Below, piece after piece: positions 16,107-31,227 of a stretch of 31,227 bases of DNA; positions within the stretch are counted from its first letter, which is position 1; each line of letters opens with the position of its first letter. Source of the DNA: a virus. The notes under the pieces are model-generated. The model was not told the DNA's origin and ran no database searches. It was given only the letters and a program-made list of their open reading frames with translations. The DNA is taken from positions 1-31,227 of the IMG/VR virus record IMGVR_UViG_3300046787_000305. The stretch is one strand, 5' to 3'. Made by a program: the position numbers and the translations under genes.

Positions 16107-16826
16107 TTAAAATGGATTTAAATTTAAAATTTGGTTTTTTGTGGCGATTGTTACCGGAATGCCGAAACGCATTTCAATTTTTTCCTTGAATTCCTTTTCA
16201 TTTGAAAGCCCATCAGATAAATGAAGCAAAACAATGTTATTGCATTTCGAAAGATCCATGTTTCCAAGCGTTAAAATTGCTGTTTGTATACTCATGTGAG
16301 AGCGCAAACGCCGGCGATTGATAAACGTTTCTGATTTTGATTTGATCAATTCCTCACAATAATTCGCCTCAATCATTATGCATGTAAATTGCCAGGTTCG
16401 AAAGTTCCATATTTGTTTGAAAGAATCAGTTAGGAAAAAAACTTTTTCGGATCCTGATTCAATAATAAATCCCAGCGTTGGGATGTCATGCGAAGCATCA
16501 AAGGAATGAATAAAAAAATCACTGATCTGTTTTGTTAATCCATTTATCAACGTTCCATGTCTGAGCTCACAAGGAATGTTCATTTGAAAAAATGTTGAAC
16601 CCAAAGCCATTAAGGGGATCCCTAATTGAGCAACCTGGTTCATTGCTCTTGAATGATCAAGGTGAGCATGAGAAACAATCGCGCCTTTGATCTTAAAAAC
16701 ATCGTAATCAATCGCCTTTTGAATTTCCTGTAATTTAACTCCGCATTCAATTAAGAGCGCGGAGTTTTCGTTTTCAAGAATGTAAGCATTTCCAACGGAA
16801 CCGGATGAAATGATTTTGAGCTTCAT
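16107..16826 (-). CDS. MBL-fold metallohydrolase next to recT
   Basis: A 239-aa protein from the ATG at 16826 (MKLKIISSGSVGNAYIL). The metal-binding motif of the metallo-beta-lactamase fold is clear in SHAHLDH at residues 52-58, with later candidate ligands in SFDASHDIP near residue 113 and the aspartate of FLTDS near 134. The start GSVGNAYIL and the HSFDASHD segment match the YycJ-like branch. In several Bacteroidota and Firmicute phages such a gene directly follows recT, so it may act as a nuclease in recombination or DNA end processing. RecT's TGA stop precedes this ATG by two bases. Confidence 0.85.
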   Translation of the reverse strand: MKLKIISSGSVGNAYILENENSALLIECGVKLQEIQKAIDYDVFKIKGAIVSHAHLDHSRAMNQVAQLGIPLMALGSTFFQMNIPCELRHGTLINGLTKQISDFFIHSFDASHDIPTLGFIIESGSEKVFFLTDSFKQIWNFRTWQFTCIMIEANYCEELIKSKSETFINRRRLRSHMSIQTAILTLGNMDLSKCNNIVLLHLSDGLSNEKEFKEKIEMRFGIPVTIATKNQILNLNPF

Positions 16827-16828
16827 TA

Positions 16829-17800
16829 TCAAAAGTCTGGCGAAGGTGTGATTGCTGGATTTTCTTGTGATTGTTGCAACTCAAATGTAATCTCCTGCGT
16901 TGCGGTTTCAGTTACAATCTCGTGTTTCACATCTTCCGTTGTGTTTGCTGGCTCGTGATTGAACTCGTCTTGAACATTGCTCAAACTAGCAAATTGAGCG
17001 TCAATTTTTTGACTATCAATGATAACATCATTGTAAGCTGCACGATAAATTGTTTTGTATGCCATTTCATCGTACCAGCCTTCAACTTGTTCTTTTCCGA
17101 CTTTTTTACCACCTGACCACACATCTTTTTCACCACCCCAAAACTCGGCACTTGCGTATTTCGGTTTGCGTTTTTCAATGTCCGCTTTCGTAAAAACTCG
17201 AATGTTGTTTGATTTTGAATTAGCATACTTCTGGCAATAAAAGCCACCAATCAGTTCACCACGATCAAAAGGATTCACAACCTCAAATAAATACGAATCG
17301 TTTTTGTTGTTGGCGTCCTTCTTGATTAACTTAAAGATGTCGTTTGCGTAAACTAGTTCAACAATAACATCTTCCAACGTGTCAAGACCGTATTTAATCG
17401 CCTTCAAAGCAAGTCCACGATACCCAATAATTGGCGTAATGTCAAACTTGTTTGTGTGATTGTTTTTATACGGAATCAAGTTAATGTGATTTGGTTGCAA
17501 TGGGTCAAGTCCAACGCTTGCCAACGGCACAACTTGCATTGCTAGCGCATTGATGTTGATATTCTCCCAAGTGTACGCCAAAGACTCGCGTTTGTCCTCT
17601 GGTGTTTTCATTCGCTTCGTTTCGGCAAGTGTCAAACTTTGGTCTAGCTTAATAAAATAGTTATTGATTAACTTTTGTTGGTATTGTGTTAAATCCATTT
17701 TACCAACTGACCCTTCGAACTCTTTTACGACTGCTTGCGTAAATCGTTCACTTGCTGATTTTTTTGCAACTGCCGGTTGCACGTTTTCTGTTTTTGACAT
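16829..17800 (-). CDS. recT: RecT-family single-strand annealing recombinase
   Basis: A 323-aa protein with the RecT core: a region near 85-110 (ALAMQVVPLASVGLDPLQPN), then HINLIPYKN and a PIIGYRGLALKAIKYG stretch near residue 122, and a GGFYCQKYANS region near 185. RecT proteins coat single-stranded DNA and anneal complementary strands, which supports phage replication, repair and circle or concatemer formation. No RecE-type exonuclease is evident next to it; the SbcC-like ATPase precedes it and an MBL-fold protein follows it. The C-terminal tail is disordered and acidic. It has its own promoter-like element at 17824-17855. Confidence 0.93.
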   Translation of the reverse strand: MSKTENVQPAVAKKSASERFTQAVVKEFEGSVGKMDLTQYQQKLINNYFIKLDQSLTLAETKRMKTPEDKRESLAYTWENININALAMQVVPLASVGLDPLQPNHINLIPYKNNHTNKFDITPIIGYRGLALKAIKYGLDTLEDVIVELVYANDIFKLIKKDANNKNDSYLFEVVNPFDRGELIGGFYCQKYANSKSNNIRVFTKADIEKRKPKYASAEFWGGEKDVWSGGKKVGKEQVEGWYDEMAYKTIYRAAYNDVIIDSQKIDAQFASLSNVQDEFNHEPANTTEDVKHEIVTETATQEITFELQQSQENPAITPSPDF

Positions 17801-17823
17801 ATTTATTTATTTATTGGTTTATG

Positions 17824-17855
17824 TAAAGATAATAATTTATACTTAATTATTCAAA
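17824..17855 (-). promoter_or_regulatory. recT promoter with degenerate operator
   Basis: On the minus strand there is TTTG (17855-17852), a 20-base spacer, then TATCTTTA (17831-17824), one base from the Bacteroidota -7 form TAnnTTTG. The 18-base window 17826-17843 matches the early operator of the other two promoters at 15 of 18 positions, with one intact half (TTTATACT). The upstream half of the promoter lies over the last codons of the SbcC-like gene. It would start transcription about 15 bases before recT. Confidence 0.6.
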
Positions 17856-19738
17856 ACTGTTAACTCTTTTTTGCTTTCATCAACTTTCAAATTGATTACT
17901 TGGCACTCGGTTTTAATTAATGAAACGATGCTTTCGCGTTGATCGATAAACACCGGCGCAAAGATTCCAAAGTGATAGTTAAGCGCGTTGATTACGTCAA
18001 GCCCTGCGTTGTACTTCATTGCGGTATTCAAGTCATTGAAAGGTGTTCCATTTACAATTGCCTCGCATGTTGGTTCAATGCCTCCATTTAATTGATCGTT
18101 AAACATTTTCCATTTCACAAGGGCAAATTTATAATTGATTCGCTTTTCAATTAGTTCGATTTTTGCTCGCGTAAAATTATCAATTTGAAATTCAACTTTT
18201 TCCAGGCTTGCGATTTCCTGGGCAAGGTTTCTGTTTTGTGATTCAAGTTCCTGGATCCGAGCATCAATTGTTTTTGCTAATTCATTAACAGCGAGCTTTG
18301 ATTTAAGCGTGTCAATTTCCGCGTTGATCACATCCTTTTGCGCTTTCAATTCGGCAACATCTGGCATTTGAATTGTGGGAATTACGATTGATTCAATTTG
18401 TAATTTAAGCGCGTCAATTTCCGGAGTTGATTCCGAGCGATCTAAAAGAATTGATTTTTCCCATTCTTTCAAATATGTTTCCTTTTGTTCAATCACAAAC
18501 TTTGTACTTTCAAAAACTTCAAGGTTGCCTTGATGTCTTGCCTTTAATTCTTTTATGCGCTCATTGTTAGCTTGGCCCTCTTCTCGGATTGATTCAAGGT
18601 TTTTTATTTTATACAAATTGAAATCTGATTCTTTTTCCTCATTATCCTGAAAGGCTTGTTTACATGTTGGGCAATTACCAACAAACAACATTGATTGCAT
18701 TGATTCAAAATCAGATCTCAACTTTTCATTTTTAGCCTCAAGCTCTTTGATTTCTCTTTCCGGTTGTGAATCAATTTTTATGCTTTGATATTCTTTTATT
18801 TCATTGATCAATTCATTTCGCTTTTGATCAATCGAAAAACGATATTGTTGTTCACTTAAATTAAATTCATTTTGAAGCTCGCGCAATTTATTTTCAAGCT
18901 CAAATTTTTTCACCTGAATTTTTTTTGTTTGTTCCTGGGCTTTTTCAACTGATTTAAAACGGTTTTGTATTTGTTCATCAATTGAATTCAATTCGCCATC
19001 CAGGGAAATGATTTCGTTTTGAATCGCGCATGAATCAACTGTATCCGGCTTATTATGATTCGCCTCATTTATCCGAGGTTGTATTGTTGCTTTTTCCTCT
19101 TTGAGTTTTTTCTTTTGTGCCTGTATTATTTTCTTTTGTTCATCCAAAGATTTTCCAGCGTTTAGGATTTCTTTGAGTTCATTGGAATCCGAATCCATTT
19201 CGGAAATAATTTCATTGTTTGAAATATCGCCGGCCATCGCCTGTAAAATTTCACGGCGCTCATTCCATTTCATTTTATCATTGAAATAAAGCGGGTTTGA
19301 AATAATCTTTGAAATATTTTCATCAATCATTTCGGAAACAGCTGTTTGATATTCCGCTTTGGATTTTGGAACGCCATTAACAAAGAATGATGTTTCATGT
19401 CCTGTAAGCTCTTCAATTTCGTTGCCTCGCTTAGTTACCCATTTTTCGCGATAAACCCGCTTAAATGTAATGTTTGCCCCATCAACGGAAAAAACTCCAG
19501 TTACTTCATGATCAAGTTTGTGAATAGGATTGTTATCCTGGTCCAATGTTTTAATTGCGAAGTCGTTTTGATCGTGCGAGTTTTTACCATAAAGTAGCCA
19601 GGTATAAGCGTCAAAGATTGTTGATTTACCAACTCCATTCGTGCCGACAATATCGGTTTCATGTGTGAAATCAATCGAAAGGTTGGTGATTTTCTTGAAA
19701 TTACGGAGTTCAAGTCTCGTTAAAGTTACTTTTTTCAT
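17843..19738 (-). CDS. SbcC-like ATPase with zinc hook
   Basis: A 631-aa protein of the SMC/Rad50/SbcC type. Walker A is GTNGVGKST at residues 32-40. Two long coiled coils (about 185-350 and 375-535) flank a zinc-hook motif CPTC at 356-359. The C-terminal lobe carries a degenerate Walker B region VFIDQRE at about 596-602 and an FNDLNTAMKYNAGLD stretch near 567-581 in the position of the ABC signature. It is shorter than bacterial SbcC. Such ATPases work with a nuclease to process DNA ends; the metallophosphoesterase further along could be the partner. The gene starts 24 bases downstream of a promoter with a clear operator. Confidence 0.85.
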   Translation of the reverse strand: MKKVTLTRLELRNFKKITNLSIDFTHETDIVGTNGVGKSTIFDAYTWLLYGKNSHDQNDFAIKTLDQDNNPIHKLDHEVTGVFSVDGANITFKRVYREKWVTKRGNEIEELTGHETSFFVNGVPKSKAEYQTAVSEMIDENISKIISNPLYFNDKMKWNERREILQAMAGDISNNEIISEMDSDSNELKEILNAGKSLDEQKKIIQAQKKKLKEEKATIQPRINEANHNKPDTVDSCAIQNEIISLDGELNSIDEQIQNRFKSVEKAQEQTKKIQVKKFELENKLRELQNEFNLSEQQYRFSIDQKRNELINEIKEYQSIKIDSQPEREIKELEAKNEKLRSDFESMQSMLFVGNCPTCKQAFQDNEEKESDFNLYKIKNLESIREEGQANNERIKELKARHQGNLEVFESTKFVIEQKETYLKEWEKSILLDRSESTPEIDALKLQIESIVIPTIQMPDVAELKAQKDVINAEIDTLKSKLAVNELAKTIDARIQELESQNRNLAQEIASLEKVEFQIDNFTRAKIELIEKRINYKFALVKWKMFNDQLNGGIEPTCEAIVNGTPFNDLNTAMKYNAGLDVINALNYHFGIFAPVFIDQRESIVSLIKTECQVINLKVDESKKELTVLNN

Positions 19739-21120: not shown

Positions 21121-21295
21121 TTGTTTTCCCAATTAATTTTGATTCAATCACTTTCACAATGAAAGCTGTTTCTTTGAACGGTGATTTGTAAGGCCGATAA
21201 ATTTCAGCACCTTCAATCCAAACAGCCCGTTTAACCGTGTGAATTTTATTCGAGCTCCTCACCTCAATTGTTCCGAAAAGAATGTTTTTGCTCAA
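21107..21295 (-). CDS. 62-aa protein starting with TTG
   Basis: A 62-aa protein whose only plausible start is the TTG at 21295, which overlaps the previous stop as TTGA; an in-frame stop lies six codons upstream, and there is no ATG inside. The sequence (LFGTIEVRSSNKIHTVKRAVW, then AEIYRPYKSPFKETAFIVKVIES) suggests a small beta barrel. It overlaps the methyltransferase start by 14 bases. No family is recognised. Confidence 0.6.
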   Translation of the reverse strand: MSKNILFGTIEVRSSNKIHTVKRAVWIEGAEIYRPYKSPFKETAFIVKVIESKLIGKTNETK

Positions 21296-21960
21296 AGCTG
21301 AATAAATGTTTTACCTTTTTTAATACATAATTTGATAACCTCATGAGCTAAATAAAACTTTGCATCATAAACCAGGATCAAAGGATTTAAAGCGCTTTGA
21401 ATTTTTAATTCTTTAACCTCATCGCTTGCGATTAATTTTAAATGAGCTCTTTCATTTTGATAAAGTGAATCATAAAAGGGGCGAGCAATTACGCGCGCCT
21501 GGAACATATCGCCGAGCCATTCGCCAGCCTTTAAACTTTCTTTGTAAATGTCGCGAGCTTCATTGTAAAAATCAATTTCCTTTTGTTTTTCCTGTTGTTG
21601 TTTTTCGTTTTCCATTTCAATCAATTTTATTTGTTGCAAAAGATTTTGTTTCCTGGTCCAATAAGTTGAAACGGGAAAAAGTAATTCATCACGGGTTAAA
21701 GAAACAAATTCCTTTTTGGTGATCACGTTTTCAAAATAAGCGTTTCGAATGTCCTGGATTGTGATCCCAGGGAATCGCTTAGGCAAAACCATAAGAACCA
21801 ATTGAAACAGCTCAGTATTTACGTTTTCCGGTCTGATCCCAAAAATTGAAGTTGATACCAGGTAAAAAATTTCTATTGCCGTGCCTGGTTGATCAACAGC
21901 CTTTTCACTTTCTTGAAACATCGATAAAGCCGATGTCCTGGATATTGCCAAATTTTTCAT
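21292..21960 (-). CDS. Unknown protein after the replication-type gene (222 aa)
   Basis: The start is taken at the ATG at 21960 (MKNLAISRTSALSMF), giving 222 aa and a 56-base overlap with the upstream gene. An open frame reaching 22062 would overlap by 158 bases and is less likely. The N-terminal part (about 1-110) includes TAIEIFYLVSTSIFGIR; the middle is a long charged helix with Gln/Glu/Lys repeats (about 110-140); the C-terminal part is helical. The position, directly coupled after a lambda O-like arrangement, would suit a helicase loader such as lambda P, but I see no sequence motif for this. Confidence 0.6.
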   Translation of the reverse strand: MKNLAISRTSALSMFQESEKAVDQPGTAIEIFYLVSTSIFGIRPENVNTELFQLVLMVLPKRFPGITIQDIRNAYFENVITKKEFVSLTRDELLFPVSTYWTRKQNLLQQIKLIEMENEKQQQEKQKEIDFYNEARDIYKESLKAGEWLGDMFQARVIARPFYDSLYQNERAHLKLIASDEVKELKIQSALNPLILVYDAKFYLAHEVIKLCIKKGKTFIQL

Positions 21961-22681
21961 TTGCATTTTCTTGTTGATCTGTTCCCAACACTTTTCTAAC
22001 AAATGCCTTTCGTTTTGCCTCATGGTCAATTGATCCATCGGCGTTCCTGAAATTGTCATCATAATTTGTTTTTTGAGTTTTGCTTTTATTGTTTTCTTTT
22101 TCCCTTGTGTTCCAATTTCTCAAAGTTGCTTTCCAATCTTTCATGGAATTTTTACCAACTTTCCAACCATTACTTTCATAATGATTGATAAAATAATCAG
22201 CGTTAACAACAAAGGAATTTAAATTTATAAAATCCTGAATTTCTGAGCGCGTAGGTTTCACAAATTTTTGTGAAGCCTTTTTTTCCTTAACACATTCTTT
22301 ATCTATGTTAATAGATAAAGAATTGTTTTCTTTAACACTTACACTATCACTAACACTAACACTAACACTAACAGGTTTTTTTTGTGCTAAAAATAACCCA
22401 CTGGGTTTTTCTGGGTTATTTTCGGTTTTTGGTCGCCCGCCCTTCAAACCATTTGCCTTCGCATTTCCCGAACGGATTTCCCATTTTTCCAGATCGCGTT
22501 TTAAAGTTGCTTTGATTGGTTCGAATAAAATTTCAATCAACCGTTCTGGAGGTGCCGGATCCTGATCATTCACGTAACGAAAAAAATGTTTGATCAATTT
22601 TCCTGCCTCTTCATCTGATAACAGTTCGAACGTGCTGATCCAATCGGCGTAAACAATTACTTTTTTTTTGCCTGTTGCCAT
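21905..22681 (-). CDS. Replication-type protein with DUF6291-like N-terminus (258 aa)
   Basis: A 258-aa protein from the ATG at 22681. Residues about 5-75 (KKVIVYADWISTFELLSDEE, then AGKLIKHFFRYVN) match the DUF6291-type domain common in Bacteroidota phage replication regions. A GLKGGRPKTE hinge near residue 81 leads to a low-complexity linker (SVSVSVSVSDSVSV, then basic/acidic stretches), and a C-terminal domain near 145-205 (PTRSEIQDFINLN, then YFINHYESNGWKVGKN, then WKATLRNW) of the kind that ends primosome or initiator proteins. By analogy it may bind the phage origin and recruit helicase. The linker DNA carries inverted and direct repeats. A 118-base leader with a pseudoknot-like fold precedes the gene. 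Confidence 0.7.
   Translation of the reverse strand: MATGKKKVIVYADWISTFELLSDEEAGKLIKHFFRYVNDQDPAPPERLIEILFEPIKATLKRDLEKWEIRSGNAKANGLKGGRPKTENNPEKPSGLFLAQKKPVSVSVSVSDSVSVKENNSLSINIDKECVKEKKASQKFVKPTRSEIQDFINLNSFVVNADYFINHYESNGWKVGKNSMKDWKATLRNWNTREKENNKSKTQKTNYDDNFRNADGSIDHEAKRKAFVRKVLGTDQQENANEKFGNIQDIGFIDVSRK
22294..22422. repeat. Repeat cluster in the linker of the replication gene, origin candidate
   Basis: Three elements lie side by side: a perfect 13-bp inverted repeat with 4-base loop (22294-22306 with 22311-22323), seven hexamer repeats on the plus strand (22331-22372, four ACTAAC plus ACTATC, ACTTAC and TTTAAC), and a perfect 11-bp inverted repeat with 11-base loop (22390-22400 with 22412-22422). 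The region codes for the variable linker, where protein constraint is weak. Inverted repeats plus iterated units inside an initiator gene recall the origin in the lambda O gene. This is an interpretation, not a proven origin. Confidence 0.6.
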
Positions 22682-29402: not shown

Positions 29403-31227
29403 TTACTTTTTTGTTACAATCGTTTGAAACCATAAATGACGACACCAGGGGGTTGTTGCGCCAGTGTCCGGATTCGTATAAAATCCGCCTTTGTAAACCC
29501 AAACATCTCGATCAACTTTGGAACTCATGAAATTGATTTCCTCCCTTGTGTACATTTTATTTAAGCTCATTAAGTTTTGGCAAAATTCCCGGCTCCCTGA
29601 AATGGCATCAGGAACATCCGTTCGAACCTGGTAACTATATCGAACCTCAAAGGTTGGAATATCAGCAACATCATTCAAAATTAATTTTTCGCCCAGGGAT
29701 GAAAGCTCACCACCTGAAACTAAACCCCATTCAGTAAGGCGAGCAATTGAAACGGCAACCTCTTTAATTGTTAATCCTGTTGCCTGTGAAATTCCGTTTC
29801 CATCCTCTCCCTTGTTTAGTAATGAAAGAACATCCTTATCGATCCCCTCAATTCCAACTGATATTTCTCCAATAGTTGCGAAAACCTCATCATGTTTTTT
29901 GAAAACGTTTTCCGTTATTGAATTCCATTGAATCGGCAATTGTGCGAAAACTTCAAAGTTTCCCGCATCCTCTCCATGCTCGGAAAAAATTGAAAGCTCA
30001 TCCGATGAAAACGAATGATTTCCTTTGCATGTACTAAATCCAGTTGTTGGAACACCGACCATTTTTTCAGCTTGTGCCTGATCAATTGAAGGGAATGAAG
30101 CCAGGATAATTTCAACCCCGCTTTTTGTATCGATTTCCCCTAATTTAACCTTTGCCACAACGTCCACAAGTGAGGCGATCTGAGCCCCATTTAAAGCCGT
30201 TTTTGATACATCGGTGATTTGTGCCTCAACTGGAGCTGTTGGCGCTGTTGCTGGCGTTGTTTCAGCTGGCGCGTTGTTAATTGTTACGCTGTTTGCTGGC
30301 GTTGTTACATCAACCGCCTGATCTATTGGTTTAACTTCAATCAAAGAAACTTCGCCCTCAAAACCTGAAAGCGAAACCATTTTATTCAACATCCAATTAA
30401 TTCTTTGCTGGCGTTGTGTTACATAAGTTTTCTTAAACACTTCAAACAGTTGCGCACTTTCCGCGGCGTTAAATGAACCCTGTTGCATAACGCCGAATAA
30501 TGTAGGCGAAACAACCCCATGAGCAACGAGAATGTTTTGAAGCGTTGTTGAATTTGTAACCGTGTAACGTTTATCCAAATCATTTCCATTTAATGGCGTA
30601 ACGATTGGAGCGTGATCCTTATCAACCGCAAAATTGATAATAATTTCACCGGCGTTTTCAGCGCCTGATGTCGGTTTTTTAACCGATGTTTTCACCTCTT
30701 CAATTTCCTCCTTAGTTTCCGGGATTCCATCGGTAAATGTGATCATTGTTCCAGAACTGAATGAGTTCTGAATTAAAGCGTTATTGTATTTGTTTAGATT
30801 CCAATCCGTTTCGATTGCTGAAACTCCGGAATAATAAGGGGGCTTAGGATAAACGCCCAGTTCTTTTCGGTTCTTTTTTGTTGGATCTTTATAATAAATG
30901 AAAAATGAACCCTCTTTAATGTTATCATTTAAAACAGGATAATCACGGTAACCTGTTTTTTCGGCATCCTGGTTTTGAGCGTTCCAATCATTGGAAAGCC
31001 AAACGCGCGTTTCATCTAAATTAAAACGACATTCATCCATGGGCAAATGTTCCCACTTAACAACGCGAACGCCCTCCATGTCCCAGGTTCCTTTAACAAC
31101 GAAACCGCCATATCTTTCATGATCCTCACAAATTGATTCCGCGATTTCATTTATTGTGAAATCAGTGTATTGATTATTCAAGAAAATTTCCAGATTTCCG
31201 GATTTTATTTCAACCCCTCCGCCGGCA
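29403..31227 (-). CDS. Portal protein, main part, with winged-helix and MuF-like C-terminus
   Basis: The frame enters the window at 31227 without a start; the N-terminal part is at 1-356, giving a 672-aa protein. The first 280 residues of this part form the portal core, with many Tyr and Trp residues and a long helix (about 235-270). A Thr/Pro/Ala-rich linker (about 293-320) follows, then an acidic region, then a winged-helix-like module at about 447-505 (GNGISQATGLTIKEVAVSIARL; full-length 527-585), and a C-terminal MuF-like end with PWCRHLW (about 578-584). Such composite portals combine DNA channel and head morphogenesis functions. The stop lies one base before the adaptor gene. Confidence 0.85.
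   Translation of the reverse strand, partial: AGGGVEIKSGNLEIFLNNQYTDFTINEIAESICEDHERYGGFVVKGTWDMEGVRVVKWEHLPMDECRFNLDETRVWLSNDWNAQNQDAEKTGYRDYPVLNDNIKEGSFFIYYKDPTKKNRKELGVYPKPPYYSGVSAIETDWNLNKYNNALIQNSFSSGTMITFTDGIPETKEEIEEVKTSVKKPTSGAENAGEIIINFAVDKDHAPIVTPLNGNDLDKRYTVTNSTTLQNILVAHGVVSPTLFGVMQQGSFNAAESAQLFEVFKKTYVTQRQQRINWMLNKMVSLSGFEGEVSLIEVKPIDQAVDVTTPANSVTINNAPAETTPATAPTAPVEAQITDVSKTALNGAQIASLVDVVAKVKLGEIDTKSGVEIILASFPSIDQAQAEKMVGVPTTGFSTCKGNHSFSSDELSIFSEHGEDAGNFEVFAQLPIQWNSITENVFKKHDEVFATIGEISVGIEGIDKDVLSLLNKGEDGNGISQATGLTIKEVAVSIARLTEWGLVSGGELSSLGEKLILNDVADIPTFEVRYSYQVRTDVPDAISGSREFCQNLMSLNKMYTREEINFMSSKVDRDVWVYKGGFYTNPDTGATTPWCRHLWFQTIVTKK
31066..31227. repeat. Terminal overlap repeat, right copy
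   Basis: This copy of the 162-base overlap matches positions 1-162 with two substitutions (31089 and 31101), both synonymous in the portal gene. It shows the contig closes on itself and that the reads or strains at the two ends were not identical. Only one copy should be kept in a closed genome. Confidence 0.95.

Follow-up and report, generated by a model that had tools for sequence, protein, structure and literature searches.

A hexamer array in the linker of a DUF6291 phage gene marks a probable intragenic replication origin

The comparisons described below indicate that the linker of a DUF6291 replication initiator probably doubles as a phage replication origin, of the intragenic type described for lambda and SPP1. 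The DNA analysed (hereafter 'the window') is the full 31,227 nt of a virus record, IMG/VR IMGVR_UViG_3300046787_000305 (positions 1 to 31,227). An earlier note on this DNA had proposed that one of its genes encodes an initiator whose linker region contains the origin, as in lambda; that proposal is supported by synteny with helicase genes, by an array kept at the DNA level in 53 of 55 family members and by neighboring words present in two orientations. Inside the gene we observed a three-part layout, comprising direct and inverted short words, a hexamer array that is C-free on the coding strand and rich in TpA, and then a lineage-specific, hairpin-forming repeat. The gene, its parts and its downstream neighbor are as follows.

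21905..22681, minus strand: candidate initiator gene, 258 aa (DUF6291 N-domain, disordered linker, C-terminal 'YESNGWKVGKNSMKDWKA' domain).
22442..22681, minus strand: DUF6291 N-terminal domain, residues 1–80, all-helical, candidate iteron-binding domain (Pfam, AlphaFold2).
22390..22422, minus strand: iteron-like block forming an 11-bp inverted repeat (AACCCA at 22412–22417 and 22402–22407, inverted TGGGTT at 22395–22400).
22331..22372, minus strand: hexamer array (GWWANW)x7, candidate unwinding element or single-strand recognition element (motif, codon tests in the family).
22294..22323, minus strand: 13-bp perfect inverted repeat, 3' of the array (arms 22294–22306 and 22311–22323, loop 4).
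22085..22273, minus strand: C-terminal domain, residues about 137–199, candidate helicase- or loader-contact domain (motif sharing among phage proteins).
21292..22062, minus strand: next gene downstream, matching no family in profile searches, in the place that relatives give to DnaB or primase-helicase genes.

The protein matches the Pfam DUF6291 profile over residues 8–85 (E 3.6e-22; 78.8 bits against a cut-off of 27.2). An AlphaFold2 model, built on a 33-sequence alignment, contains a confident helical N-domain (residues 12–80) and a helical C-domain (residues 145–199), separated by a linker (residues 86–136) with pLDDT under 50 that is predicted to be disordered; the repeats thus lie in DNA encoding the linker between the two folded domains of the initiator. 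The C-domain motif YESNGWKVGKNSMKDWKA is common to phage proteins with unrelated N-domains, and residues 128–212 weakly match the PHROG family 'DnaD-like helicase loader' (E 0.015). Foldseek searches with the whole model and with the C-domain returned no match at E<1e-3, and a PDB sequence search with the protein gave no usable match, absences that say little; comparison of the N-domain model with solved DNA-binding folds likewise gave no match. A search of the literature, whose coverage is incomplete, found nothing on DUF6291 or on the hexamer array.

On the minus (coding) strand the array consists of seven units (GTTAGT x4, GATAGT, GTAAGT and GTTAAA) that encode VSVSVSVSDSVSVK and occupy codons 104–117 of 258, within the predicted disordered region. 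The seven hexamers listed in the earlier note are therefore present where it placed them, and in a linker. A degenerate search for (GWWANW)x4 found one place in the 31 kb, against an expectation of 0.

To place this array in its family, we collected 95 distinct DUF6291 proteins from viral and bacterial contigs, which reduced to 55 non-redundant sequences at 90% N-domain identity. An in-frame (GWWANW)n array is found in the linker of 53 of the corresponding 55 genes; the earlier note had named relatives with intact domains and no linker repeats as evidence against an origin, and this check does not refute the proposal. The array follows the N-domain and alternates codons that begin with G and codons that begin with A, nearly always in the form GNW ANW. 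Because arrays were detected by the bases at positions 1 and 4 of the unit, only positions 2, 3, 5 and 6 provide free tests; of 406 units, about 96–98% have A or T at each of positions 2, 3 and 6, and position 5 can be any base.

Codon usage within the arrays differs sharply from that in the rest of the same genes. Third-position C is nearly absent (tests for N, D, V, T, I and S, p 3e-5 to 2e-25): in the 53 arrays AAT outnumbers AAC by 118:2 (482:359 outside), GAT outnumbers GAC by 149:5 (456:229 outside) and AGT outnumbers AGC by 142:0 (133:98 outside), with the same avoidance for V, T and I codons. Valine is encoded by GTA over GTT at 129:81 (134:192 outside, p=6e-6). Glycine and alanine first codons end in T and never in A (GGT+GCT 17:0 GGA+GCA; 375:436 outside, p=2.5e-6), and therefore nearly every unit holds a TpA step, which would fit an element that must open.

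The same constraint is visible in how the arrays diverge. Among 18 disjoint pairs of related genes, differences at codon positions 1, 2 and 3 number 0, 100 and 68 in the array and 147, 69 and 373 in the N-domain (p=1e-25, a nominal value since the pairs share deeper ancestry), such that the array differs most at position 2 and the N-domain most at position 3. Of the 68 third-position changes in the array, 54 are exchanges between A and T. Close relatives encode unlike linkers (for example DSDIDIVIDSDKDI and DIDIVIDSGIDKDI) yet retain the same DNA class. On these codon comparisons the array is constrained at the DNA level and not at the protein level, and the gene contains, adjacent to its other repeats, an AT-rich element selected as DNA, with a putative role in unwinding.

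Relatives were represented by 68 loci, each 5 kb or longer and together 465 kb, and in them every one of the 60 strict (GNWANW)x5 runs falls within the DUF6291 gene; the loci were picked for holding such a gene, so this count measures confinement and not frequency. When viral contigs were scanned with (GWWART)x5 without regard to gene content, 53 of the 80 loci among the matches listed were DUF6291-like by HMM; about 17 more of those 80 were other initiator-type proteins by reading, and about ten were unrelated or intergenic. A scan for the GATAWA form found mostly initiator-type genes as judged by eye, without an exact count, including Phage_rep_org_N proteins (L292 is one with a GATAWA array) and DUF1376 proteins. 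Two of the roughly 17 other initiator-type genes from the (GWWART)x5 scan (in L179 and L246) have frames broken by several in-frame TGA codons, which suggests that these phages read TGA as an amino acid. In a group of phage contigs (L203, L213, L214 and L224) GTTAGT x5 occurs in non-coding DNA that immediately precedes a small gene and runs antisense to it; that gene appears to sit in a structural module, a non-initiator setting.

Upstream of the array, between it and the N-domain, many relatives carry short words in direct and inverted copies. These words are clade-specific (AACCCA/TGGGTT, GAAGCA/TGCTTC, TTCAACA/TGTTGAA, GGATGCG/CGCATCC and others). Their repeat coverage amounts to 1741 nt, compared with 593 expected from synonymous recoding (118 versus 124 in an N-domain control), and they are individually significant (p<0.05) in 30 of 53 genes and in 0 of 53 controls; the window gene, taken by itself, shows no significant excess of such words (p=0.16). 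The words are candidates for iterons bound by the initiator. In the window the 11-bp inverted repeat is perfect (arms 22390–22400 and 22412–22422, loop 11) and exists because AACCCA occurs twice and TGGGTT once. The genome contains three perfect inverted repeats with arms of at least 11 bp and loops of 3–30, two of which flank the array. Twelve dinucleotide shuffles averaged 0.67 repeats with arms of at least 11 bp and 0.08 with arms of at least 13 bp; by these figures an 11-bp repeat is nothing unusual in the genome as a whole, and what matters is where it lies.

The 13-bp repeat of the window reads ATTCTTTATCTAT-TAAC-ATAGATAAAGAAT. At the same place in L002, the nearest relative, stands another perfect 13-bp repeat of different sequence, ATTCTTTAATTAC-TAGC-GTAATTAAAGAAT, and between these two sequences, on which the comparison rests, 3 of 13 pairs have changed on both sides (compensated) and none on one side only. 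Each folds as a single-stranded hairpin of about -9 kcal/mol. No 13-bp repeat is found at this place in L003 or L091, and we rejected a 3' hairpin as a family-wide feature, the clear cases being only L001/L002 and L024. The repeat could serve as a landing or priming site peculiar to the lineage, or it could have arisen by template-switch mutation in a palindrome. Both perfect inverted repeats reported in the earlier note are thus present, and its pairing of them as equivalents does not hold: the 11-bp repeat is an iteron-like word pair, and the 13-bp repeat is specific to a lineage.

In relatives the gene that follows immediately downstream of the DUF6291 gene encodes a DnaB helicase or a primase-helicase: DnaB_C in L028, L029, L093, L151 and L160 (E 1e-77 to 1e-87) and a TOPRIM primase in L023 and L158. 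Two cultured Flavobacterium phages display the same arrangement. In tooticki6-1 a primase/helicase is annotated adjacent to the array-bearing gene, and in elemoA the array-bearing gene, annotated 'replication protein', adjoins a primase/helicase. Coupling of the initiator to helicase or loader genes is therefore found in relatives, with no recognisable helicase in the window. The window gene at 21292–22062 is a candidate helicase loader.

Profile searches of the genes in the window revealed no recognisable helicase, polymerase or loader, in agreement with the earlier note as regards polymerase and helicase, and recruitment of host replication enzymes is plausible for that reason. A cytosine methylase is also encoded. 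Near the initiator is a recombination cassette (16107–19738) with a RecT annealing protein, a metallo-beta-lactamase-fold protein and an SbcC-like ATPase in a row. All genes are on one strand and GC skew is negative throughout; the skew check that the earlier note had proposed gave no independent origin signal, the skew being uniform along the genome. The terminal 126 bases of the window are an exact copy of positions 37–162, and its initial 36 bases differ at two places from their counterpart near the end. This amounts to a terminal redundancy of ~162 bases with two differences (1–162 and 31066–31227). Because the end repeats the start of the record, the genome is probably closed or circularly permuted, and complete at about 31.07 kb.

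Several other explanations of the array can be weighed against this evidence. If the array were a microsatellite prone to slippage, in a flexible linker under no constraint, the pattern would be mutational and without function; this would account for the predicted disorder, for the variation in unit number and make-up among close relatives and for pure hexamer runs such as GTTAGT x4. Slippage and drift would not, however, preserve a unit in which position 1 stays G, position 4 stays A and positions 3 and 6 stay A or T, with positions 2 and 5 free to vary, across arrays in proteins that are ~30–60% identical, nor would they confine strict runs to one gene with none elsewhere in the sequence of the relatives; this explanation is already disfavoured and we regard it as very improbable. 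Selection on the linker as protein, as a flexible or aggregating VSVSDS-type spacer, is consistent with an array that is always in frame and with the small or polar residues of the window clade. The encoded residues nevertheless span VSVS, VNVN, DNDN, DKDI, TGTV and ENEN (with DKDK or DIDI in initiator-type genes of other kinds), second codon positions vary more than third, and serine in VDEGA contexts is encoded by AGY in 155 cases and by TCN in 11, compared with 223 and 384 elsewhere. Such selection is therefore extremely improbable as the source of the pattern.

The array could instead be a real DNA element with a function other than that of an origin, for example in regulation, in recombination or in the exchange of modules where the N- and C-domains meet. 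The N-domain and array are joined to many different C-terminal parts, which places the array at a module boundary, and the window encodes a RecT annealing protein. This explanation leaves unaccounted for both the two-orientation words beside the array and its location in genes that adjoin DnaB or primase, and we consider it improbable.

An intragenic origin has precedents. The lambda origin maps within O, with iterons followed by an AT-rich element in mid coding sequence (PMC5043065), and so resembles the window in placing repeats and an AT-rich element inside the initiator gene. It differs in having four iterons of 18–19 bp, as opposed to the short 6–8 bp words of the window family; in lambda O the alternating G/A-codon array is missing (the longest run spans 4 codons), and we found no sequence relation between lambda O and the DUF6291 protein. 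In SPP1, oriL lies in gene 38 (encoding the G38P replisome organizer) and combines direct repeats with an AT-rich unwinding element, and initiation also requires the loader gp39 and the DnaB-family helicase gp40 (PMC6316719); the likeness to the window is one of layout, compared by published description and not by sequence. Phage_rep_org_N replisome organisers and 'DnaD-like helicase loaders' are similar in that an initiator or loader has a repeat-coding linker. The linker of Listeria phage A118 gp49 (L413:5908-6250) contains copies of the word ACAACG and, after them, repeats of GAATTAAA, a two-part layout like that of the window gene in which the sequences differ; the G/A-codon array is absent from A118 gp49 and from Lactococcus phage TP901-1 Rep.

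A further comparison is with bacterial oriC, where DnaD recognises single-stranded 5'-TnnT-3' in the DnaA-trio/BUS region (PMC10201434, PMC8287927). Like the array, the DnaA-trio/DnaD element is strand-specific, of short period and AT-rich, and it lies beside initiator-binding boxes as the array lies beside candidate ones; unlike the DnaA-trio/DRE, which consists of NAN trios or TnnT repeats of period 3 next to DnaA boxes, the array has a 6 nt unit in which G and A alternate. We rejected membership of the array in the DnaA-trio/DRE (BUS) class, given its six-base unit, its GTA preference (TnnT is broken because valine codons favour GTA over GTT) and the lack of DnaA boxes beyond chance (107 DnaA-box-like sites, against 131 expected).

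If the linker does serve as an origin, the N-domain of the initiator would bind the words as double-stranded iterons, and its binding would strain and open the AT-rich array. The initiator or a partner would then keep one array strand unpaired, and a replicative helicase would be brought in by the C-terminal domain; this helicase could be the host's, or one that depends for loading on a phage protein not recognised in the searches, and host enzymes would then copy the genome. We suggest tentatively, as something short of an even chance, that the array is a fixed-unit (6 nt, GNWANW) single-strand recognition element for the phage initiator or helicase loader, common to initiators with unrelated N-domains (GWWART and GATAWA forms). 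It might then represent a separately evolved phage counterpart of the DnaA-trio/DnaD element, placed within coding sequence.

These observations give a domain of unknown function, DUF6291, a likely role in a replication initiator, and they provide a DNA pattern by which the probable origin can be located in many phages that have not been cultured. They also raise the question of what reads a six-base unit whose DNA stays while the protein it encodes changes.
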